Part shown: one piece after another, positions 1-35,638 of the stretch | Layout: each line of letters opens with the position of its first letter | Position numbering within the stretch: the stretch's first letter is position 1 | NCBI RefSeq assembly: GCF_013314895.1 | Contig: NZ_JABTYE010000014.1 | Span: forward strand, 1-64,000 | Direction: 5' to 3' | DNA from: Cupriavidus gilardii | GTDB lineage: Bacteria > Pseudomonadota > Gammaproteobacteria > Burkholderiales > Burkholderiaceae | Length of the DNA: 64,000 nucleotides | The notes under the pieces: model-generated | Databases searched by the model: none | What the model saw: only the letters and a program-made list of their open reading frames with translations | Told to the model about the DNA's origin: nothing | Made by a program: the position numbers and the translations under genes

Positions 1-173
1 GGTGCTGCTGGCCGCGCCTTGGTAGCCGGTGCTGCTGGCCGCGCCGTAGTCGCCGGTGCTGCTGGCCGCGCCTTGGTAGCCGGTGCTGCTGGCCGCGCCG
101 CGGGTGCCGGTGCTGCTGGCCGCGCCGTAGTCGCCGGTGCTGCTGGCCGCGCCTTGGTAGCCGGTGCTGCTGG
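1..173. repeat. 27-bp tandem repeat inside the DUF7666-like gene
   Basis: Six full 27-bp units start at 1, 28, 55, 82, 109 and 136, with a partial seventh to 173. All share GGTGCTGCTGGCCGCGCC and vary only in the last nine bases. The unit is a multiple of three and encodes 9-residue repeats on the minus strand, so selection is probably at protein level. The array continues beyond the window edge, so copy number is unknown. Confidence 0.95.
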
Positions 174-525
174 CGGGCGAATCCGGGTCGATCGGCTTGC
201 ACCGGCTCGTGGTGTACTCGATCGCCGCCTTGACCATGCCGACGATGTCGAGCTCAGCCTTGATGGAGATCTTGCGGCTTGCGACCTTCGTGTCGCCGCT
301 GTCTCGGCTCAGGTCGCCCGACTGCTCGACCACGGCGAAGCGGCTACCGGCGGGCGGGTAATAGCCGAACACGTCAAGCGGGTACTCGCAGGCATGAAAA
401 CCGCCGGCGCAGGCCTCGACGTCGCCCTCGTGTTCATAGGTCTTGCCGAGTTCGTACTGAAAGCCGCGGCACTGCATGTCCTTGTCGAAACCCTTGTAGG
501 TCACGATGGGCGTGGTGTCCGACAT
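1..525 (-). CDS. DUF7666-like phage protein with C-terminal GAASST repeats (partial)
   Basis: Reading leftward from ATG at 525, the frame stays open to the window edge (175 codons), so the C-terminus is missing. The first ~110 residues begin MSDTTPIVTYKGFDKDMQCR and contain GFHACEYPLDVFGYYPPAG, which I recognise as the DUF7666 type of phage/plasmid protein of unknown function. From about residue 117 it turns into 9-residue repeats such as GYQGAASST and GDYGAASST, the usual tail of this family. GGAGAA sits 6 nt upstream of the ATG and supports the start. It is in the leftward early operon driven by the pL-like promoter near 1375. Confidence 0.72.
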   Translation of the reverse strand, partial: MSDTTPIVTYKGFDKDMQCRGFQYELGKTYEHEGDVEACAGGFHACEYPLDVFGYYPPAGSRFAVVEQSGDLSRDSGDTKVASRKISIKAELDIVGMVKAAIEYTTSRCKPIDPDSPASSTGYQGAASSTGDYGAASSTGTRGAASSTGYQGAASSTGDYGAASSTGYQGAASST

Positions 526-562
526 CGATTGTTCTCCGTTGAGGTTGTTGCGTTGTCGTTGT

Positions 563-874
563 TCAGGCGGCTTGCCAGTGGGTATTGCCGCGCCAGTCAC
601 TGACCGGGCGTAGCGACCGCTCGTATGCCTCGCGGGCATCGCGTTCGAATCGCTCCCAGTGGGTGCCCTCGAGCGAGTCGCGCAGGCTGATCGTCGTGCC
701 GGCGATGGCGACGTCGGCCACATAGATCCGAGCGCTCATGCCGTTGCCAACGACGTTGCCGTACACCTCGACGCGCAGGTCGCCGAAGAAGGACGAGCAG
801 AGGTGTTCCAAGTCGTCCGCCACCTCGGGCTGGCCCGGGACTCGGATCAGGTCTTGGATGAGGGTGGCTGCCAT
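563..874 (-). CDS. Hypothetical phage early protein
   Basis: A 103-residue protein starting MAATLIQDLIRVPGQPEVAD, in the leftward early operon just upstream of the DUF7666-like gene. I do not recognise a domain. It has an LRVEVYGNVVGNGMSARIYV strand-like core, then an acidic/basic C-terminal helix. The frame is open further upstream, but GGAG lies 6 nt before this ATG. The longer version would overlap the opposite-strand zinc-ribbon gene, so the short form is preferred. Confidence 0.55.
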   Translation of the reverse strand: MAATLIQDLIRVPGQPEVADDLEHLCSSFFGDLRVEVYGNVVGNGMSARIYVADVAIAGTTISLRDSLEGTHWERFERDAREAYERSLRPVSDWRGNTHWQAA

Positions 875-964
875 CGCTTGCTCCATCAGATGGGTGGGAA
901 GGGCGCCCCATGCGAAAATCGTTGTCCCTACAACAACCTCGCCTCTAGCGAGGCGACCTTCCCA

Positions 965-1162
965 ATGACTCAAGAAATTGCTCAGCCGAAGTGCCCGGAC
1001 TGTGGTCTTGTCGGTGTCGATACGATCGGATGCACGCCAAGCCGTCAGAAGAACGGCGCCGGTGATCCGTGGTTCGAAATCGCTCACTGCATCGCCTGCG
1101 GGCACGTGTACGGAACCTTCGCTAAGGTCGTGAATCCGTCGTCGTATCGCATCGGCGGTTGA
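965..1162 (+). CDS. Small zinc-ribbon-like protein
   Basis: A 65-residue protein with two Cys pairs, CPDCG near the start and CIACG in the second half, separated by a GDPWFEIAHC segment and followed by HVYGTFAK. This is the layout of small phage/plasmid zinc-ribbon proteins. The function is unknown; binding of nucleic acid or a protein partner is inference. It lies on the opposite strand to its neighbours and overlaps the end of the next leftward gene by about 40 bp, so it may be an independently acquired gene. Longer upstream starts would run antisense through a real gene. Confidence 0.6.
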   Translation: MTQEIAQPKCPDCGLVGVDTIGCTPSRQKNGAGDPWFEIAHCIACGHVYGTFAKVVNPSSYRIGG

Positions 1163-1316
1163 CCGTATTGGCGTCCGTCGCTCGACGCGCGTAGTGATGG
1201 ACAGCTTCGTGCTGTCGCGCCTTGCGCGCATCGAGCAGGTCGAGCATGGGCTCGACGAGCCAGTACACGAGCCGCCAGAACGCGGCTCGTTTTCCTTTCG
1301 TGCGGGTGTTGTTCAT
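1122..1316 (-). CDS. First gene of the pL operon, small basic hypothetical protein
   Basis: A 64-residue, Arg/Lys-rich protein starting MNNTRTKGKRAAFWRLVYWL. It is the first reading frame downstream of the pL-like promoter (TTGACG/TAAGAT at 1380-1352). GGAG stands 6 nt before this ATG; an in-frame ATG four codons upstream is also possible. No domain is recognised. By position it corresponds to lambda N or other immediate-early left genes, but no antitermination motif is visible. Confidence 0.5.
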   Translation of the reverse strand: MNNTRTKGKRAAFWRLVYWLVEPMLDLLDARKARQHEAVHHYARRATDANTVNRRCDTTTDSRP

Positions 1317-1351
1317 CTGCGGCTCCATCGGTGTAGTGCGTCGATGGATGT

Positions 1352-1402
1352 ATCTTAGGACAGCCTAAAACATGCGTCAAGAATTATTTTAGGAAGGACT
1401 AA
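1352..1402 (-). promoter_or_regulatory. pL-like promoter with two repressor operators (OL)
   Basis: On the minus strand, -35 TTGACG (1380-1375) and -10 TAAGAT (1357-1352) are separated by exactly 17 nt. The operator TTAGGACAGCCTAA (1355-1368) covers the spacer and the edge of the -10. A second site, TTAGGAAGGACTAA (1389-1402), lies just upstream of the -35 and overlaps the stop codon of the 73-aa gene. The geometry copies that at pR (3242-3270), so one repressor should close both promoters. Confidence 0.88.
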
Positions 1403-1620
1403 AATTTCGCTCGACCGATGTCCGCCAGCAGTTCCGCGCTTACCTCGACAAGTGCCTGGACCGCGAGCTGTCGCGAAATGGCGTACGCACCCGAAATTGA
1501 ATAGGCATGTGTACCGTCCGGCTGCCACTGGATCGTAATCGTCCCGTCCGGCGGCTTCGGCTGGTGCTGCTCGCGCTGCGCCGATCCCCGGTAGCGCGCC
1601 AGCTCAATAACATTTGACAT
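1399..1620 (-). CDS. Hypothetical protein between pL and the cI operon terminator
   Basis: A 73-residue protein, MSNVIELARYRGSAQREQHQ at its start, with an ITIQWQPDGTHAYSISGAYA strand region and a helical end. No family is recognised. A GAGAGGGG stretch precedes the ATG. It follows the terminator at 1852-1875, so it needs its own promoter in the 1621-1845 gap. That gap also holds a small inverted repeat, TGTGTAGTTAGCACA (1681-1695), and a GCCGG/CCGGC hairpin (1637-1654) in the presumed leader. It may be a lysogeny-expressed gene independent of cI. Confidence 0.6.
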   Translation of the reverse strand: MSNVIELARYRGSAQREQHQPKPPDGTITIQWQPDGTHAYSISGAYAISRQLAVQALVEVSAELLADIGRAKF

Positions 1621-1851
1621 GGACCCCTCTCATGCTGCCGGTCCTTGTGCCGGCTCTTTGAGGGATCAAGTTAAGGGATTTGTGTAGTTAGCACATACAA
1701 AATGCCCTGCCGAGGTGCATGCGCTACAGGGTAGGGTGAGGCCCAATGTACCGATGGGGAGGTCGAGGCGCACTGAGCGCGTGGGGCGCATTAGGCGCTC
1801 CAGGTAGGCAGAGAGACTTGCCGGGGTAGGGCAAGCGATAGGCGTAAAAAA

Positions 1852-1875
1852 GCCCGCCGGAGTGGCGGGCTTTTT
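1852..1875 (-). terminator. Bidirectional terminator ending the cI operon
   Basis: GCCCGCC (1852-1858) and GGCGGGC (1864-1870) form a 7-bp stem with a 5-nt loop. T runs flank it on both strands (five T on the plus strand, six on the minus strand). It lies 16 bp after the last gene of the leftward cI operon and should end that transcript. Confidence 0.9.
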
Positions 1876-1890
1876 ACCTACGCGAGGCGT

Positions 1891-2076
1891 CTACTTGGTG
1901 CGTGTGAGTTGCTTCTTCGAGGCGCGGTCGATCGTTTTGGCCCTGATGACCCTCGACTGCGTCTTCACCATCTCCTGCTGCACATCACGTGTCGCTGCCA
2001 GCATCGCTTGAATGGGCGCGAAATAGAGCCGCGGCGTCTCTTTGGCTGCTTCCCAAAAAATCGTCCATGTGCTCAT
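1891..2076 (-). CDS. Small hypothetical protein, last gene of the cI operon
   Basis: A 61-residue protein starting MSTWTIFWEAAKETPRLYFA with a Lys/Arg-rich C-terminus. The aromatic N-terminal half may be an amphipathic or membrane-associated helix. Its ATG overlaps the TGA of the upstream membrane gene by 4 bp, so the two are translationally coupled and probably work together. A terminator follows directly. Function unknown. Confidence 0.65.
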   Translation of the reverse strand: MSTWTIFWEAAKETPRLYFAPIQAMLAATRDVQQEMVKTQSRVIRAKTIDRASKKQLTRTK

Positions 2077-2348
2077 TTCATCTCCTCAAAGGCTGCTTGA
2101 ACTGCGTTCCAAAGGAAGAATAGCATGCAGACCGCGTCTGCCGCGAAGATCAAGTACTCCAAGCCGGTCAGGCCGATCACCAAGGCATAGGATGCGCCAT
2201 TTGCCTCAAGGAACGAAACGAACTTCCCTAGCCCAAAGGCGAGCAACGCAAGGATTACGAAGATCGCCGCTCCCGCCAGCGCGTGTCCCGCAAACGCCCA
2301 CACGGCTTTCCATGGGGACTGGTGTCCCCGGTTCTTGTTATTCGACAT
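2073..2348 (-). CDS. Two-helix membrane protein in the cI operon
   Basis: A 91-residue protein with two hydrophobic stretches, roughly residues 15-46 and 54-84, and charged ends (SNNKNRG at the N-terminus, EEMK at the C-terminus). It is a small inner-membrane protein. It lies downstream of the repressor on the same strand and is coupled to the 61-aa gene, so it should be made in lysogens. By position it resembles lambda rexB, but no sequence relation to RexB is claimed. Confidence 0.7.
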   Translation of the reverse strand: MSNNKNRGHQSPWKAVWAFAGHALAGAAIFVILALLAFGLGKFVSFLEANGASYALVIGLTGLEYLIFAADAVCMLFFLWNAVQAAFEEMK

Positions 2349-2432
2349 TCTCTTTTTGGTTTTGTTGCGACCGGGCGGATCTGCCGGCTTGGCTCAGCCG
2401 GTCTTCTTCTGGTCGGCCTGCACACGGCTCCC

Positions 2433-2747
2433 CTAGAAGCCGCCTTTCAATATAAATTCGAGGTGTTTCTCAATGTCCTGGAAGACCTCAGATGACTCAT
2501 CCATCAACATCGCGCGTTCAGCAGGATGAAATTCACCGCTGGGCGGAAGATCTCTTAAGCTTCGGAGACCCTTCTCCAGAAGAACGCGAGCAAGCGATCC
2601 AATGGCTCCTGGCTCTTCGTCGGCGCCTTTCTCGACGCATTTCTGTTTGGCAAGCGCAGTTATCAGCACAAGCACCAGATGCTCAAGGACCAGGACCTGA
2701 TGCCTGAGCCTTTGGTGCTCAAGGTCGTGCTCTGTGAAGGTCGGCAT
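2433..2747 (-). CDS. Coiled-coil hypothetical protein next to cI
   Basis: A 104-residue protein starting MPTFTEHDLEHQRLRHQVLV. The first ~35 residues have Leu/Val spaced as in a heptad coiled coil or amphipathic helix; the rest is charged and helical. It is 33 bp downstream of the repressor gene on the same strand. An opposite-strand open frame at 2492-2707 was judged the shadow, because this one matches the operon direction and the heptad pattern. Function unknown. Confidence 0.55.
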   Translation of the reverse strand: MPTFTEHDLEHQRLRHQVLVLEHLVLVLITALAKQKCVEKGADEEPGAIGSLARVLLEKGLRSLRDLPPSGEFHPAERAMLMDESSEVFQDIEKHLEFILKGGF

Positions 2748-2780
2748 TCCGATCTCGTTCCCTGACTTTTCTTTTGCGGC

Positions 2781-3206
2781 TCAGCCGGTTTTTTTGTGCT
2801 GCCCAGGCAGGCGGCGCGAGCCGGCTACGCCGGTGACCTCCGCAGGGCGGTCAGCATTCTTTCCTTTGCGCTCCCATCGATCGATGGTCTGCGAAATGAA
2901 GTCGTCGACCCGCTCGATCTCGTCTGCTGGGAGCTGCATTACCGCGTTGACGTCAACCGAGAATGGCCACACGTCGCGCTGGAACTTCGGCAACTCACCA
3001 AACAACACCCACTCTGGCCGAATGCCGAGCTCGCGACAGATTGCAAACAGGCGATGAGCGCCTATGGTCTCAGCTGGCTTGATGCTGGCGGCGCCCACCC
3101 ATGCGGAGAACGTGGGCGCAGACACGCCTGCCTTCTTGGCGAGAGAGTTGTTGGACTGGCCGCTTTCCTCGCAGGCGGCGGCAAGCCGGTCATTCCACGT
3201 TTCCAT
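2781..3206 (-). CDS. CI-like HTH repressor
   Basis: A 141-residue XRE-type protein. The helix-turn-helix spans about residues 16-45 (SNNSLAKKAGVSAPTFSAWV). The rest is short and has no visible S24 peptidase Ser/Lys dyad, so it is unlike self-cleaving lambda CI. It is divergent from the Cro-like gene across a three-operator region, the normal place for the prophage repressor. The operator at 3206-3219 overlaps its start codon and ribosome-binding region, which suggests negative autoregulation. How it is inactivated at induction is not visible here. Confidence 0.88.
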   Translation of the reverse strand: METWNDRLAAACEESGQSNNSLAKKAGVSAPTFSAWVGAASIKPAETIGAHRLFAICRELGIRPEWVLFGELPKFQRDVWPFSVDVNAVMQLPADEIERVDDFISQTIDRWERKGKNADRPAEVTGVAGSRRLPGQHKKTG

Positions 3207-3270
3207 TAGGTAAGCCTAACCGATTGCGTTTTAGGATGCCCTTGCATATTCTTTTAGGAAGACCTAAAAT
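3206..3270. promoter_or_regulatory. OR region with pR promoter and three operators
   Basis: Rightward pR: -35 TTGCAT (3242-3247), 17-nt spacer, -10 TAAAAT (3265-3270). Operators are TTAGGTAAGCCTAA (3206-3219), a half-degenerate TTAGGATGCCCTTG (3231-3244) that touches the -35, and TTAGGAAGACCTAA (3254-3267) between -35 and -10. Centres are about 25 and 23 bp apart. The first site overlaps the cI start, the third blocks pR. This is the layout of a lambdoid switch built on a different operator. Confidence 0.9.
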
Positions 3271-3301
3271 AGGACCGGAAGACCAATGCACAGGGAACGT
3301 C

Positions 3302-3532
3302 ATGAACGAGTACGACCACTACGCCGTAACAGCAATCGAGCGAATGGGCGGCACGTCCGCCGTCGCTCGACTCTGCGAGATCGCTCCAGCGTCGGTGTCT
3401 GAGTGGAAGCGCACTGGCATCCCCAGGTCGCGCTTGCAGTACCTCAAGCTGGCGCGTCCGGATGCCTTTGATGGCCTTGTCGAGCCGATGAGCGCTTGCA
3501 CCAGCAAGGAATCGTCTGCTCAGGCCGCGTGA
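3302..3532 (+). CDS. Cro-like HTH protein
   Basis: A 76-residue protein. The HTH is clear at residues ~15-40 (GGTSAVARLCEIAPASVSEW), followed by KRTGIPRSRLQYLKLARP, typical of Cro/YdaS-type small regulators in Burkholderiales phages. It is the first gene after pR, divergent from cI, and AGGGA precedes the ATG. It should repress cI and early transcription by binding the same operators, with different site preference. Confidence 0.85.
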   Translation: MNEYDHYAVTAIERMGGTSAVARLCEIAPASVSEWKRTGIPRSRLQYLKLARPDAFDGLVEPMSACTSKESSAQAA

Positions 3533-3589
3533 CCGTGGCTATGCCTTCCCGTTCCTCTCGTGGTCGTCCATTTTGCCGAAGGAGAAGAG

Positions 3590-3721
3590 ATGAAACGACT
3601 GTATGCCCGTTTGATGCTCTGGATCATTCGCCCAGCATTGAGCCTGCACGTCCGCGCCTCAGCGGAAAGCGCGGCGCCTTCCGCCAACGACGCGGAAGCG
3701 TTCAAGAGATTAGGTCTTTGA
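3590..3721 (+). CDS. Small phage protein, 43 aa
   Basis: MKRLYARLMLWIIRPALSLH at the start, then an Ala/Ser-rich end closing with AFKRLGL. A very good ribosome site (AAGGAGAAGAG) precedes the ATG, and position and strand fit the pR operon. The N-terminal half could be a short membrane-active helix. It overlaps the end of the opposite-strand gene by 20 bp. Function unknown. Confidence 0.6.
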   Translation: MKRLYARLMLWIIRPALSLHVRASAESAAPSANDAEAFKRLGL

Positions 3722-3929
3722 GCGCGTCGCGATGCTTGTACAGGCTTTCCTTCCAGTCGTCGCTTCTGCCGATTGTGGCGAAGGCTGCAGCGATGGAGTC
3801 CAGGTTCCGGTCGAACTCGGTGAAAAACCGCTCCCGTGCGTCCTGGGGCTGGACTTTCGCGAGCGCGATGAAGGCCGCCTCCAACGCGCGAAGGTGAGCG
3901 TCCAACTTCTCCAAAGTCATCGTTTCCAT
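3702..3929 (-). CDS. Hypothetical helical protein
   Basis: A 75-residue protein, METMTLEKLDAHLRALEAAF at the start, strongly helical and charged, without a recognised domain. AGGGGAAC precedes this ATG; the frame continues upstream but only through low-quality sequence. It faces against the early right operon, so it must have its own promoter in 3930-4025, where it would be divergent from the next gene. Confidence 0.6.
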   Translation of the reverse strand: METMTLEKLDAHLRALEAAFIALAKVQPQDARERFFTEFDRNLDSIAAAFATIGRSDDWKESLYKHRDALKDLIS

Positions 3930-4025
3930 GCGTTCCCCTGGTTTGGGTGGTTGAGAAAGTGAGATGGCTCGATTTTTCCATATCCATGGGGAATGCACCC
4001 CTTTACCTGATTGTTGAGGTACCCG

Positions 4026-4250
4026 ATGTCCCGCCGTGCTGAGTTTCGGAACGAGGTGAAGACGCGTCTTCGTGACCGCGCCTACGAAGCCCTCCAGCTC
4101 TACAAGGAGGTCCACGGGATCGATTCGGATTCCGCGGCTCTCGCCCGCATCGCCGAGATTGCTTTGTTCGGCGCTGTCGGAACTTTGCCCGTCGCGATCA
4201 GCGGCGTCAGTGACGGTTTGGGCCATTCCGGCCCGCTGGTGGCGGCATGA
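4026..4250 (+). CDS. Hypothetical early protein, possible small DNA-binding regulator
   Basis: A 74-residue protein starting MSRRAEFRNEVKTRLRDRAY. The basic N-terminal helix and the SAALARIAEIALFG segment resemble small regulators in phage early operons, but no family can be named firmly. TTGAGG lies 8 nt before this ATG. It overlaps the next gene by 4 bp (ATGA), so the two form one operon. Confidence 0.6.
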   Translation: MSRRAEFRNEVKTRLRDRAYEALQLYKEVHGIDSDSAALARIAEIALFGAVGTLPVAISGVSDGLGHSGPLVAA

Positions 4251-4450
4251 GCCAGGTCAAGACGGAAGTGGTCGCGCTGATTCCGCCGGACGAGGCGAGG
4301 GACTTGGTGATGAAAGCCGCTGCGATGGGATGCAACACGCCCGATTTGCTCGGGATGCTGATCCTGGAAGCCGCCTATGGGTCGTTACACCCCGAGGTCA
4401 TCGCCTTCCATAAGCGGGCCAAGCAGGGACAAGTTGGGACGCAGGGGTAG
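4247..4450 (+). CDS. Hypothetical early protein
   Basis: A 67-residue protein (MSQVKTEVVALIPPDEARDL at the start) with a helical MKAAAMGCNTPDLLGMLILE core. It is translationally coupled to the gene before it and lies 3 bp ahead of the replication gene. No domain is recognised; a regulatory or replication-accessory role is only suggested by position. Confidence 0.6.
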   Translation: MSQVKTEVVALIPPDEARDLVMKAAAMGCNTPDLLGMLILEAAYGSLHPEVIAFHKRAKQGQVGTQG

Positions 4451-4452
4451 CA

Positions 4453-5334
4453 ATGCGCGACTACGGCAAGGTCAGCCCTCAGTTTTGGATGGGGCGAACG
4501 GGAAAGGAGTTGCGCAAGCGTGGCCCCGAGGCGCAGCTTGTCGCGCTGTACCTGATGACCTGTCCTCACGCCAATATGCTCGGCCTCTACTACGTGCCGC
4601 TGATGTACATCGCGCACGAGACTGGCTTGGGCATGGAAGGGGCATCGAAGGGGCTTGCATGGGCCATCGAAGCTGGGTTCTGCGAGTACGACGAGGACTC
4701 CGAAGTGGTCTGGGTGGTCGAAATGGCCCACTACCAGATCGGAGAGCGTCTGAGCCCGAGCGATAAGCGCTGTGCAGGGGTGCAGAACGAGTACAACGCG
4801 CTTCCCGAAAACCCTTATCTGGCGCGGTTTTTCGAGAAATACGAGGCTGATTTCAACCTCACGAGAAAGCGCGAAAACGGAAGCCCCTTGGAAGCCCCTT
4901 CCAAGCCCCTTGCAAGCCAAGAGCAGGAACAAGAGCAAGAGCAAGAGAAGGAACAGAAAAGAGTAGATGCGCCGGCAAAGCCGTCGCCTGCTAGCCGCGG
5001 GTCTGCGTTGCCCAAGGACTGGGAGCCGGACGACGAGCAAATCGCGTTCTGTCGCAGCACTCGGCCTGACCTGGACCCTCGCGCTGTTGCCGAGCGATTC
5101 CGCGATTACTGGATCGCGCAGCCTGGCGCCAAGGGCCGCAAGTCCGACTGGCCTGCGACGTGGCGCAACTGGGTGCGAAACGAGAAGGCCGTACCGCGCG
5201 CCGGGCCCGCGCAGCAGAGCAGGCTGGACCAGCAGAAGCAAATCCTCGACGAATTGACCGGACGCAGCAGGGACAGAAGCTATGACCCCGACGACCCTTT
5301 CACCATCGAAGCCACAGCGCGCCTCGTCGGCTGA
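4453..5334 (+). CDS. Lambda O-like replication initiation protein
   Basis: A 293-residue protein with a winged-helix-like N-terminal half (about 1-120), a Gln/Glu-rich linker (EQEQEQEQEKEQK, ~157-169), and a C-terminal DnaT/primosomal-type module around 185-245 (LPKDWEPDDEQIAFCR, then DWPATWRNWVRNE). This architecture fits phage initiators that bind origin iterons lying inside their own gene, as lambda O does. Four 11-bp-spaced iterons do lie within it, at 4881-4922. Its end overlaps the P-like gene by 53 bp. Confidence 0.75.
   Translation: MRDYGKVSPQFWMGRTGKELRKRGPEAQLVALYLMTCPHANMLGLYYVPLMYIAHETGLGMEGASKGLAWAIEAGFCEYDEDSEVVWVVEMAHYQIGERLSPSDKRCAGVQNEYNALPENPYLARFFEKYEADFNLTRKRENGSPLEAPSKPLASQEQEQEQEQEKEQKRVDAPAKPSPASRGSALPKDWEPDDEQIAFCRSTRPDLDPRAVAERFRDYWIAQPGAKGRKSDWPATWRNWVRNEKAVPRAGPAQQSRLDQQKQILDELTGRSRDRSYDPDDPFTIEATARLVG
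4881..4970 (+). repeat. Candidate phage replication origin: four iterons plus purine-rich tract
   Basis: AAGCCCCTT occurs at 4881, 4892 and 4903, and a degenerate AAGCCAAGA at 4914, so spacing is exactly 11 bp, about one helical turn. Eleven is not a multiple of three, so the repeat is not forced by the protein it encodes. A strand-asymmetric A/G-rich stretch (4920-4970) follows. Iterons then an easily melted tract inside the O-like gene is the lambda ori plan. Confidence 0.65.
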
Positions 5335-6001
5335 CTGGCCGGCCGCAGCGCTTCCCGAGCATTGGATCGATTCGCTGTTCGAGCGGCTGGAAGGCTTCTA
5401 CGGCGCCAAGTTCGCCAACGCTTGGGCAGGCACGAGCCGAGCCGCGATGCGGCGTCTGTGGGCGATCGAACTGGCGACGCTTGGTCGCGATGAGCTGGCC
5501 TTCGGTGTCAAGGCGCTGCGCACGCTGGCATGGCCTCCGACGCTGCCCGAGTTCATCGCTCTGTGCCGCCCTCCGGTCAACTACGACGCGGCGCTGTACG
5601 AGGCCACGCAGCAGCTTCGCCTGCGGGGCGAAGGCAAGGATCAATGGACCAATCCGGCGTTCTACTGGGCCGCAGTCAAGGTTGGGGAGTTCGACATGCT
5701 GAACCTGTCGCACAGCGCGCTCATCAAGCGCTACAGCGCAGCGCTGGATGAGGTGCTGCGAGGCGAGGTCAACCCTGTGCCGCCGCGTGCTGTCGCCCTG
5801 CCGGCGACTGGCAAGACCCGTGCGCAACCGGAGCGGGTGCAGGCTGCCGTAGCCGAGGTCAAGGCGATGCGCAAGGACGTGGGCAACAAGGACTGGGCCA
5901 AGCGGATCTTGGAGCGGCAGAAGCGGGGCGAGAAGTTCACGCTCGCCGTTGTGGACATGGCCAAGCGCGCGCTGGGGATGCCGATCGGAGTTGCCGCATG
6001 A
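5282..6001 (+). CDS. Lambda P-like replication protein (helicase loader type)
   Basis: A 239-residue protein of the phage replication protein P type. An N-terminal region with WIDSLFERLEGFYGAKFANA and RRLWAIELATLGRDELAFGV matches the alpha-helical P family that recruits the host replicative helicase. A Lys/Arg-rich C-terminus (KDWAKRILERQKRGEKF) ends it. It overlaps the O-like gene upstream, and its stop overlaps the next start (ATGA). Helicase-loader function is inferred from family and context. Confidence 0.78.
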   Translation: MTPTTLSPSKPQRASSADWPAAALPEHWIDSLFERLEGFYGAKFANAWAGTSRAAMRRLWAIELATLGRDELAFGVKALRTLAWPPTLPEFIALCRPPVNYDAALYEATQQLRLRGEGKDQWTNPAFYWAAVKVGEFDMLNLSHSALIKRYSAALDEVLRGEVNPVPPRAVALPATGKTRAQPERVQAAVAEVKAMRKDVGNKDWAKRILERQKRGEKFTLAVVDMAKRALGMPIGVAA

Positions 6002-16556: not shown

Positions 16557-17231
16557 ATGCAACCCATCATCACCCGCGATGCGGCAAAGGCTGCCGGGTT
16601 GCCGAGATATTTCACCGGCAAGCCATGCAAACACGGGCATCTCGCCCCTCGATATACGTCATCCACGACCTGCGTCATCTGCCAGCATGCGGCGACGCAA
16701 GCCTTGCGAGCGAAGAATACTGAGCGCACGCGCCGGCAAAATGCGGAGACACGCGAGCGCACGAGGGAGAAGCGCAACGCATACCACAGGGAATGGATGA
16801 AGCGGAATCCCGAGAAGAACCGGGCGAATGTGGCGCGGTGGAGGCGGGCCAATCCTGACAAAGTGTCTGCCTTGTCTGCTGCGTATCACGCTAGGAACGC
16901 TGAGCGCCTCAATGCCCGAAGACGGGCATACAGAAAGAACAATCCGCATGTTGGTGCTGCATCGTCAAGGCGGCGGCGCGCAAAGCTGCGGGGCGCGGAG
17001 GGGTCGCATACGGCGGCCGAGATTCTAGCGCTGGCTCAAAAGCAGAACTATCGCTGCGCGTGTTGCGGCGTTTCTATTCGACGCGGATATCACGCAGACC
17101 ACATTACTCCGCTCGCCAAGGGCGGATCGGATTGGATTACGAACATCCAGTTGCTTTGTGCCAAGTGCAACAAGCGCAAAGCAGCGAAAGACCCGCTGGC
17201 GTGGGCAGCCGAGAACGGACTGCTGCTGTAG
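16557..17231 (+). CDS. HNH endonuclease inserted in the head operon
   Basis: 224 residues. N-terminal ITRDAAKAAGLPRYFTGKPC plus HGHLAPRYTSSTTCVIC forms a zinc-finger-like head. A very basic linker (about 60-145) follows, then an HNH domain with CACCGVSI, YHADHITPLAKGGSDWITN and LLCAKCN. It is a free-standing homing-type endonuclease carried between two morphogenesis genes, with a hairpin element before and its own terminator after. A GTG at 16521 is possible, but AAGG before ATG 16557 and family starts favour the latter. Confidence 0.85.
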   Translation: MQPIITRDAAKAAGLPRYFTGKPCKHGHLAPRYTSSTTCVICQHAATQALRAKNTERTRRQNAETRERTREKRNAYHREWMKRNPEKNRANVARWRRANPDKVSALSAAYHARNAERLNARRRAYRKNNPHVGAASSRRRRAKLRGAEGSHTAAEILALAQKQNYRCACCGVSIRRGYHADHITPLAKGGSDWITNIQLLCAKCNKRKAAKDPLAWAAENGLLL

Positions 17232-34974: not shown

Positions 34975-35193
34975 ATGCGGCTGCCTACTCCCGTTGAAGC
35001 AACCGGCTACGCCGGATCGGTCGTTTCGATCGGCGCATCTCTGACGCTGACCGACATCGGAATCATCGTCGGCATCATTACGGCGCTTCTCACCTTTGGC
35101 TTTAACGCCTGGTACATCCGGCGCAAGGACAGGAGAGAAGTGGAGGAGCACGCGGCACGCATGCGGGCGCTTGGGGGCAGCCATGAACTCTGA
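34975..35193 (+). CDS. Small phage holin
   Basis: 72 residues with one clear membrane segment (about 24-48, LTDIGIIVGIITALLTFGFN) and a charged C-terminus (RRKDRREVEEHAARMRALGG). The size, topology and place directly before the endolysin fit a small holin; with a SAR lysozyme it may work as a pinholin. Its end overlaps the lysozyme start by 11 bp. Confidence 0.78.
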   Translation: MRLPTPVEATGYAGSVVSIGASLTLTDIGIIVGIITALLTFGFNAWYIRRKDRREVEEHAARMRALGGSHEL

Positions 35194-35638
35194 CCTGCGT
35201 ACACGCCTGATTGCTGCCGGCATCGCGGCGGCGGTTCCACTGGTAGCTGCATTCGAGGGTCTGCGCCAGCGCGCCTACCTCGATCCGGTGGGCATCCCGA
35301 CCGCCTGCTTTGGGACCACGAAGGGCGTTCGCCTCGGCCAGGTCTACACAAGCGAGCAATGCGACAACCTTCTCGCGCGCGATCTGCTGACGGCGAACGT
35401 TGATGTCGATGCATGCGTGCGCGTGCCGCTGACGGATGGCCAGCGCACCGCGCTTGTGTCGTTCACCTACAACGTCGGTCGCGGCAACTTCTGTGGCTCT
35501 ACGCTGGTGCGCAAGCTCAATGCCGGCGACTACGTGGGCGCGTGCAATGAATTGCCGCGTTGGGTCTATGCGAAGGGCGTGAAGCTGCCGGGGCTGGTGA
35601 ACCGTCGGGAGCAGGAGAGGGCGCTATGCCTTGGGTGA
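35183..35638 (+). CDS. SAR-type phage lysozyme (GH24)
   Basis: 151 residues. N-terminal LIAAGIAAAVPLVAAF is a weakly hydrophobic signal-anchor-release segment. The catalytic pattern Glu25-x8-Asp34-x5-Thr40 (FEGLRQRAYLDPVGIPT) is that of T4-type muramidases; ALVSFTYNVGRGNFCGSTL is a further GH24 block. It would be exported by Sec, tethered, then released to cut peptidoglycan. Confidence 0.9.
   Translation: MNSDLRTRLIAAGIAAAVPLVAAFEGLRQRAYLDPVGIPTACFGTTKGVRLGQVYTSEQCDNLLARDLLTANVDVDACVRVPLTDGQRTALVSFTYNVGRGNFCGSTLVRKLNAGDYVGACNELPRWVYAKGVKLPGLVNRREQERALCLG

Follow-up and report, generated by a model that had tools for sequence, protein, structure and literature searches.

Two small overlapping genes, mem91 and p61, are a real, conserved, and mobile two-gene membrane module that sits, in a prophage of Cupriavidus gilardii, at the position occupied by rexAB in phage lambda. 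Within the libraries searched, this family is new; the kind of system is one that is already known. Given its position and its predicted membrane topology, mem91-p61 is probably an exclusion or abortive-infection unit.

Layout of the repressor region

The window, that is, the whole 64,000-nucleotide stretch of DNA that was analyzed, belongs to contig G000:C6 (147 kb) and forms its left end. Its phage-like genes ran from the contig start to approximately 36 kb, as judged from ORFs read by eye. Family scans covered the proteins that are named individually here. The features of the repressor region were as follows.

1122..1328, minus strand: 68-aa ORF (ORF call) downstream of the OL-like sites, at the position of lambda N; no family match in Pfam or PHROGs
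1353..1404, no strand: OL-like region with two operator-like palindromes (1353 and 1387), both scoring 13 of 14
1399..1620, minus strand: p73, a conserved 73-aa gene beyond the terminator, on the far flank of the cargo slot; matched in 8 of 60 genomes of the genus
1846..1875, minus strand: intrinsic terminator 3' of p61, based on its fold and on aligned copies in loci L007 and L041
1891..2076, minus strand: p61, encoding a cationic 61-aa protein, with a 4-bp overlap (ATGA) with mem91
2073..2348, minus strand: mem91, encoding a two-helix membrane protein of 91 aa, the first gene of the cargo pair
2433..2747, minus strand: cc104 (104 aa), the next gene after the cI-like repressor gene
2781..3206, minus strand: cI-like repressor, 141 aa (phrog_8, E 1e-8; phrog_4, E 9e-8; Pfam HTH_26, E 6e-5)
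3204..3269, no strand: OR-like region between cI and cro, with operator-like palindromes at 3204 (score of 10 of 14), 3229 (11), and 3252 (14)
3302..3532, plus strand: cro-like gene, divergent from cI; matched by phrog_8008 (E 2e-12) and, short of the cut-off of that model, by Pfam P22_Cro (E 3.5e-5)

A first-pass annotation of this DNA had described cI and genes for proteins of 104, 91, and 61 aa on one strand, a 4-bp coupling of the last two genes, and a strong terminator closing the block. All four ORFs were present on the minus strand, the ATGA overlap was verified, and the terminator segment (1835-1895) folded at -30.1 kcal/mol (z -4.7), with 0 of 200 shuffles as good. The terminator could be aligned with sequence in L007 (block 1508-1874) and in L041 (block 1841-1871). 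From cI to p61, the genes were on one strand, and no minus-strand terminator was found between them in a simple scan, which also failed to list the strong terminator 3' of p61. In the case of the repressor, a Pfam and PHROGs scan detected an N-terminal HTH only; no S24 peptidase domain was found.

The operator-like sites matched the consensus TTTTAGG-N4-CCTAAAA. Based on 10 first-order resamples, 2.3 sites scoring at least 10, 0.1 scoring at least 11, and 0 scoring at least 12 were expected by chance in the window; the consensus was derived from these sites themselves, and the scores serve as a rarity check and not as an independent discovery. Because sites at 17023 (score of 10) and 21550 (score of 11) equaled those at 3204 and 3229, the latter two sites rest on position and not on score. 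The OL-like sites coincided with the sole promoter-like match in 1-6000 (TTGACG-17-TAAGAT, 1380 to 1352, minus strand), an interval for which shuffles yielded 1.2 such matches versus the 1 observed.

The lambda record J02459 has the order OL, three leftward coding sequences, OR, and cro; all three coding sequences are labeled rexb, and we take them to be rexB, rexA, and cI. Operator starts were 23 and 24 bp apart in lambda OR and 25 and 23 bp apart in the OR-like region of the window. Since the order of genes and operators was the same, with operator-like sites on both flanks of the block, the earlier description of this position as the place of rexAB was right. Positions 1-180 of the window contained tandem repeats that encode ASSTG-type units; the minus-strand ORF to which they belong continues beyond the start of the contig.

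Conservation and predicted structure of mem91 and p61

When the window was compared with locus L002, nonsynonymous differences were far less frequent than synonymous differences in both mem91 (pN 0.113, pS 0.761) and p61 (pN 0.239, pS 0.784), which indicates that the two genes are more than chance ORFs. In the membrane protein, H22, G26, F30, D71, and E89 were invariant in 23 of 23 sequences, and E64 was present in 22 of the 23. In the partner, P15, F19, A20, and P21 were invariant in 21 of 21 sequences, which gave the motif P-x-x-(Y/F)-F-A-P, and all 21 had a positive net charge (+2 to +15). In addition, the distances between loci for the membrane protein and for p61 were correlated (r 0.80; nine loci), and none of 5,000 permutations reached a value as high.

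The initial prediction of a two-helix membrane protein was borne out by two hydrophobic stretches and by a modeled helical hairpin (H12-49 and H54-90; mean pLDDT 80.8, pTM 0.54). The p61 model was helical and had low confidence (pLDDT 67.8). E64 and D71 are seven residues, or one heptad, apart in the second mem91 helix; a plain anchor would not usually show this arrangement, which would suit an oligomer or a pore.

Both proteins had been thought to lack a recognized family, and we indeed found no significant match for mem91 or p61 in Pfam, PHROGs, PADLOC, NCBIfam, or PDB. In PHROGs, the best E values were 0.58 (mem91) and 0.061 (p61), and cc104 had no match. No PADLOC model was matched by mem91, p61, cc104, the membrane protein and p61 of L002, the p61 of L039, or the membrane protein of L040. 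Because the proteins are short and either hydrophobic or charged, four weak similarities were set aside as chance: the Sensor domain PF13796 (touched by 5 of the 23 membrane proteins, best E 0.015), SpoIIM (one of the 23, E 0.0046), DUF6976 (two of the 21 partners, best E 0.061), and the NCBIfam model PRK14618 (mem91, E 0.037). A structure-based search, which had been proposed for all three proteins, was run with the mem91 model alone and returned generic helical hairpins; the best E values were 0.63 in PDB and 0.34 in BFVD, no match reached E <= 0.001, and the fold was thus not informative. Sequence searches of solved structures were likewise uninformative for the pair. Finally, no description of the pair was found in the literature searched, including PMC11436027 (in excerpt), which does not prove that there is none.

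The leaders of the membrane gene varied among loci. In the window, L002, L003, and L061, the gene was preceded by an A-rich leader with no clear Shine-Dalgarno sequence, and AAAACCAAAAAG was common to the leaders of the window (2349-2368) and L061 (5683-5701). The leaders of L004, L006, and L013 were less A-rich, and in L010, L012, L039, and L040, which are non-phage copies, an AGGAG-type site was present ahead of the membrane gene.

Occurrence of the gene pair in phages, plasmids, and genomes

We collected 28 loci via a match to one or the other gene, and the counts that follow apply to these loci and not to a random sample. In an HMM search, the two genes were adjacent and on one strand in 27 of the 28 loci. 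The exception was the weak match L026 of genome G337 (E 1.8e-5; no p61 within 3.2 kb), which was excluded from the family, as was G617, whose membrane-gene match (E 9.8e-4) had a stop inside. L005 was left out of the counts because the contig ends inside the gene. The 27 paired loci included two sets of identical records (L012/L067 and L039/L068) and one near copy (L014), which left 24 distinct loci. A start codon of p61 permitted an overlap with the membrane gene in 26 of the 27 loci; the overlap was 4 bp in 19 loci, 8 bp in five, and 11 bp in two. In L078, the remaining locus, the frame of the membrane gene stops early and there is no overlap. We defined a mem91-p61-type pair by adjacent genes, the residues D71 and E89, and the P-x-x-(Y/F)-F-A-P motif, and the window's pair had all of these.

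A repressor gene on the same strand preceded the pair in six of the seven distinct phage copies. Specifically, in viral contigs, the pair was located behind a repressor of phrog_4 with a UmuD-like part in L002, L003, and L004, behind a 276-aa repressor (read from the sequence) in L061, and after a repressor and two further genes in L013 and its near copy L014; the window's own pair is the sixth such copy. The phage copy in L006 was located beside an integrase gene, with no repressor. In L061, L002, L003, and L004, the gap between the repressor gene and the membrane gene was 19 to 147 bp. Under a fixed rule, 9 of 14 loci, all seven phage copies among them, had a stem followed by a T-run no more than 160 bp beyond p61; the five loci that failed were all outside phages, and resampled sequence passed in 2 to 12 of 200 cases. 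This count supersedes a looser look that had no control.

In whole genomes, the pair was rare. In the genus, 3 other genomes among 60 had it; the counts were 4 others among 398 for the family and 3 others among 399 for the order, with one weak match in each of these two sets. In the family to which G418 belongs, 1 genome among 150 had it; p61 matched 2 other genomes of 398 in the phylum and no other of 369 in the class. Relatives of the membrane protein encoded by the Cupriavidus metallidurans plasmid pMOL30 were found in 34 of 72,556 plasmid records, 23 of which were typed conjugative; by genus, these were Pseudomonas (22), Cupriavidus (7), Stenotrophomonas (2), and others (three), and the 34 contain repeats of one plasmid, such as pMOL30, which is present twice. 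The window's own mem91 had no match among the 72,556 plasmid records, and neither it nor the pMOL30-type protein had a match in 50,697 phage records.

Two p61-like ORFs with the FAP motif were present at nine plasmid loci (L064, L065, L066, L070, L071, L073, L074, L075, and L076). Eight of these loci had a single membrane gene in the stretch covered, and L075 had a second, weaker one. The second ORF, located near the pair, suggests that the motif marks a wider family of small proteins.

The 104-aa gene is separable from the pair

The first-pass annotation had treated cc104, mem91, and p61 as one unit, and this part of the proposal did not survive. Among 60 genomes of the genus, relatives of cc104 were found in three further genomes, two of them weak. 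Close relatives (91-92%) were located behind a short repressor of 175 aa in L007 and behind another, of 152 aa, in L041 (G011:C49), and weak relatives (36% and 32%) adjoined HTH proteins, identified by eye, in L042 and L043, where the cc104 relative sits in front of the HTH gene. The mem91-p61 pair was absent from all four of these loci. Conversely, a tblastn search with cc104 against the 26 other pair loci and L026 gave a best E value of only 0.42, in stretches of which many were just 3 kb. We therefore rejected a three-gene unit, since cc104 and mem91-p61 occur apart in relatives. Because cc104 is found beside short HTH proteins without the pair, and the pair is found without cc104, cc104 probably belongs to the repressor circuit, and it looks like a part of that circuit in phages whose repressor lacks S24.

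A 71-aa plus-strand ORF inside cc104 (2492-2707) was considered and rejected as a real gene: relative to L007, its dN and dS were 0.051 and 0.081, compared to 0.05 and 0.25 for cc104 (91% identity), and cc104 was preferred on these values and on its distant relatives. After the cc104 stop, one frame of 2388-2432 (minus strand) reads GSRVQADQKKTG and then a stop, which resembles the end of the window's cI, GSRRLPGQHKKTG. The resemblance is a 21-bp repeat, and 5 of 2,000 shuffles were as good or better. The repeat may be a recombination scar from a time when the pair was directly behind a repressor.

The pair occupies a cargo slot between the repressor and p73

The DNA blocks conserved between the window and L007 were 550-885 (97%), 1508-1874 (89%), 2430-2741 (92%), and 3523-4450 (84%). 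The second block corresponds to p73 and the terminator, and the third corresponds to cc104. In contrast, the stretch that carries the pair, 1875-2429, was unrelated. With L041, the conserved blocks ended at 1871 and resumed at 2430. Thus, the pair is replaced by other genes in two sister prophages, which identifies mem91-p61 as cargo. The L007 slot held an ORF of 86 aa and a phrog_3996 (moron class) membrane protein of 200 aa; a weak PADLOC match in this slot (E 0.0044) was discounted. The L041 slot held a DUF6932 protein (PADLOC PDC-M63A, E 3.5e-6) and a 330-aa protein.

Among the 60 genomes of the genus, p73 was matched in eight, with the window's own genome counted. We surveyed nine loci of the Cupriavidus type in which both a repressor and p73 were present, namely, eight of the nine genome places of p73 plus L007; the ninth place, G044:C163, was outside the survey, as its p73 match is weak and has a stop. 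Five of the nine slots (the window, L007, L041, L042, and L056) contained several genes, two (L059 and L060) contained one secreted-looking gene, and two (L057 and L058) contained no ORF of at least 60 aa. An HNH restriction endonuclease (PADLOC E 3.8e-25) and PDC-M24B (E 3.4e-13) were found in L042, in which one slot protein (4568-5134) was outside the PADLOC scan. Convincing PADLOC matches were thus present in two of the six other occupied slots (L041 and L042), and to this extent the defense candidacy that had been drawn from the rex-like position applied to the slot as well. Secreted-looking proteins without a Pfam match were present in L056, L059, and L060. Such occupants, together with the two slots that have no ORF of at least 60 aa, indicate that the slot is not reserved for defense genes.

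Two of these loci, L041 and L056, are contigs 49 and 51 of G011, so that one Cupriavidus genome carries two such slots with different cargo. In L056 (587-1434, minus strand), two slot genes resembled by eye a RelE-type toxin and its partner, with no Pfam or PADLOC match.

Plasmid neighborhoods of the pair

We opened six plasmid regions with flanks of 6-9 kb. Abi or restriction genes were near the pair in three of the six, a count that has no control for how often such genes occur within 9 kb. On pMOL30, the pair (RMET_RS29765/RS29760) is within an 18-kb stretch that also contains AbiEi/AbiEii (PADLOC E 3e-56 and 4e-103), VapBC, and a UvrD-type helicase. On pSTJ1, its neighbors are genes for a rhomboid protease, an ATP-binding protein, a restriction endonuclease, and an N-6 methylase, and on pALIDE01 an AbiEii-family gene is approximately 4 kb away. 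The neighbors on pSTY and in two other regions were mostly hypothetical, with rdgC in two; in these three regions, no defense gene was annotated except for a DNA methyltransferase gene on pSTY. The defense genes near the plasmid copies are suggestive and not proof.

The pMOL30 pair belongs to the same family as the window's pair (membrane-protein HMM, E 1.5e-36; p61 HMM, E 9.6e-23) and has the same 4-bp overlap. It differs in that the plasmid is typed conjugative, no annotated repressor is beside it, and an AGGAG-type site precedes the membrane gene (L012). Both of its genes are annotated only as "hypothetical protein."

Discussion

The place behind cI, the predicted membrane hairpin, the coupled partner, and the neighbors all point to membrane protection that is expressed in the lysogen. 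The explanation that we favor, at a probability that we judge to be just short of even, is that mem91-p61 is a swappable two-gene cargo at the end of the cI operon, made in dormancy, that protects the lysogen at the inner membrane. Its direct support consists of the conserved overlapping genes, the operator-like sites on both sides, the terminator, the replacement in sister prophages, and the recurrence behind different repressors; from these we infer transcription with cI and protection against phages. At the end of the cI operon, the pair would be made whenever the prophage is dormant. Within the inner membrane, mem91 would oligomerize as a hairpin whose second helix carries the acidic residues E64 and D71, and p61 would bind it from the cytoplasm via the P-x-x-(Y/F)-F-A-P motif and a cationic tail. 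An incoming phage might then trigger the complex, which would depolarize the membrane in a Rex-like abortive infection, or it might be stopped at DNA entry in a SieA-like manner; we have no firm preference for either mode of action.

The earlier proposal of an exclusion candidate in the rex position therefore stands in part: a cI-strand block between operator-like sites, with an unrecognized, coupled membrane pair in a cargo slot, is what we found, and the unit has two genes rather than three. A drawback of the protection reading is that no family or fold match (Pfam, PHROGs, PADLOC, NCBIfam, PDB, or BFVD) supplies a function. Other points against it are the PADLOC matches in only two of six slots, the slots with secreted-looking proteins or with no ORF of at least 60 aa, the phage copy without a repressor in L006, the three of six plasmid regions without a clear defense gene, and the five non-phage loci that had no terminator after p61 under the fixed rule. 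A broader version of the idea, which we consider unlikely as a whole, is that a two-gene membrane guard is common to temperate phages, where it is behind repressors, and to megaplasmids of Cupriavidus, Pseudomonas, and Stenotrophomonas, with one complex shielding the host from invading DNA.

The main rivals to an exclusion unit are addiction and plain lysogenic conversion. In an addiction (toxin-antitoxin) module, mem91 would be a small membrane toxin and p61 its neutralizer, and the pair would be kept because loss of the element is punished. Small two-helix membrane toxins exist, such as GhoT, and the tight coupling of the genes, the presence of one module in both phages and large plasmids, and the proximity of AbiE and VapBC on pMOL30 are all in line with this idea. 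On the other hand, the membrane protein is first in the gene order, which is unlike most type II toxin-antitoxin pairs, and eight of the nine plasmid loci with two p61-like ORFs have a single membrane gene in the stretch covered. We give addiction a rather small chance.

We see an equally small chance that the pair serves lysogenic conversion, in which case its membrane protein would adjust the physiology of the host (envelope stress, leakage of ions or protons, motility, or receptor assembly) and would have no exclusion role of its own. The secreted-looking slot proteins in L056, L059, and L060 are compatible with such a role, as are two plasmid copies that are among small hypothetical, partly membrane, proteins. 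Conversion alone, however, leaves the repressor link and the two slots with defense candidates unexplained.

Entry exclusion in conjugation, in which the pair would block incoming plasmids and prophages would have borrowed it, is a much weaker candidate. The F-type proteins relevant to this idea are TraS and TraT, and 10 of 15 opened plasmid regions were typed MPF_F, in addition to the 23 of 34 plasmid records typed conjugative. The gain for prophages would be little, however, and none of the six wide regions had an annotated transfer gene close to the pair, although many of their genes are hypothetical. Lastly, a lytic or regulatory role for the three genes (for example, as a holin and an antiholin) in place of a lysogeny function is very improbable. 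Holins can be small two-helix membrane proteins, but the genes are on the cI strand, between operator-like sites, closed by a terminator, and far from the late genes (a lysozyme-like ORF, read by eye, is at 35183-35638), and the pair recurs behind repressors and on plasmids.

If mem91-p61 does exclude phages, as we favor, it would be a minimal system (152 aa for both proteins together) whose invariant residues are clear targets for mutation and that is also present on plasmids like pMOL30. More generally, prophages use cargo linked to the repressor to carry genes with effects on the lysogen, and the slot that runs from the repressor, or from the repressor and cc104, to the terminator and p73 offers a simple positional route to more prophage defense genes. 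If the broader guard idea is true, Cupriavidus prophages would have a predictable place for cargo in their repressor-to-p73 interval, from which further systems could be read.

Comparison with known exclusion systems

Among known systems, lambda RexA/RexB is similar in that two genes are downstream of cI and between OL and OR, and one encodes a membrane protein (PMC6426606, in excerpt). Homology to RexAB was rejected on sequence, as hhalign gave a probability of 0.6 to RexB and 0.05 to RexA. In addition, mem91 and p61 had no tblastn match at E <= 1 in the phage collection, which includes lambda. The architectures also differ: RexB is a 144-aa four-pass membrane protein (PMC7542560, in excerpt) and RexA is a large cytoplasmic protein of 279 aa, whereas mem91 has two helices in 91 aa and its partner has 61 aa, and the membrane gene is first here, unlike in lambda. 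As they are not homologues of RexB and RexA, mem91 and p61 would at most be similar in how they work and would not be members of that family.

A second group comprises inner-membrane, prophage-expressed proteins that block DNA injection, such as P22 SieA and HK97 gp15 (PMC10883804, in excerpt). SieA is alone necessary and sufficient and has three predicted membrane helices in 162-164 aa, which sets it apart from the pair. In the phage collection, from which P22 and HK97 may be absent, neither mem91 nor p61 had a match. The Pseudomonas phage Fc02 gene olg1 (sie1), with gene 10, is another small exclusion gene that apparently shares one transcript with the repressor in the lysogen; it differs in that it is upstream of the repressor and in overlapping frames, and Olg1 is in the soluble fraction (PMC9936078, in excerpt).

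A further likeness is to the two-gene prophage defenses with a membrane component, namely, CarolAnn gp43/gp44, Sbash gp31/gp30, and Butters gp31/gp30 (PMC6426606 and PMC7542560, in excerpt). Searches with mem91 and p61 (tblastn, E <= 1) gave no match in the phage collection, which may not include these three phages, and the proteins of the CarolAnn type (a 178-aa four-pass membrane protein and a 370-aa partner) are unlike the 91-aa and 61-aa proteins here. The gp43 and gp44 genes of the Gordonia phage CarolAnn are cotranscribed with the repressor gene (PMC6426606, in excerpt) and encode a membrane protein and a partner for which depolarization has been proposed (PMC6426606 and PMC7542560, in excerpt). 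By analogy, we consider CarolAnn gp43/gp44 to be the nearest experimental precedent for mem91-p61.
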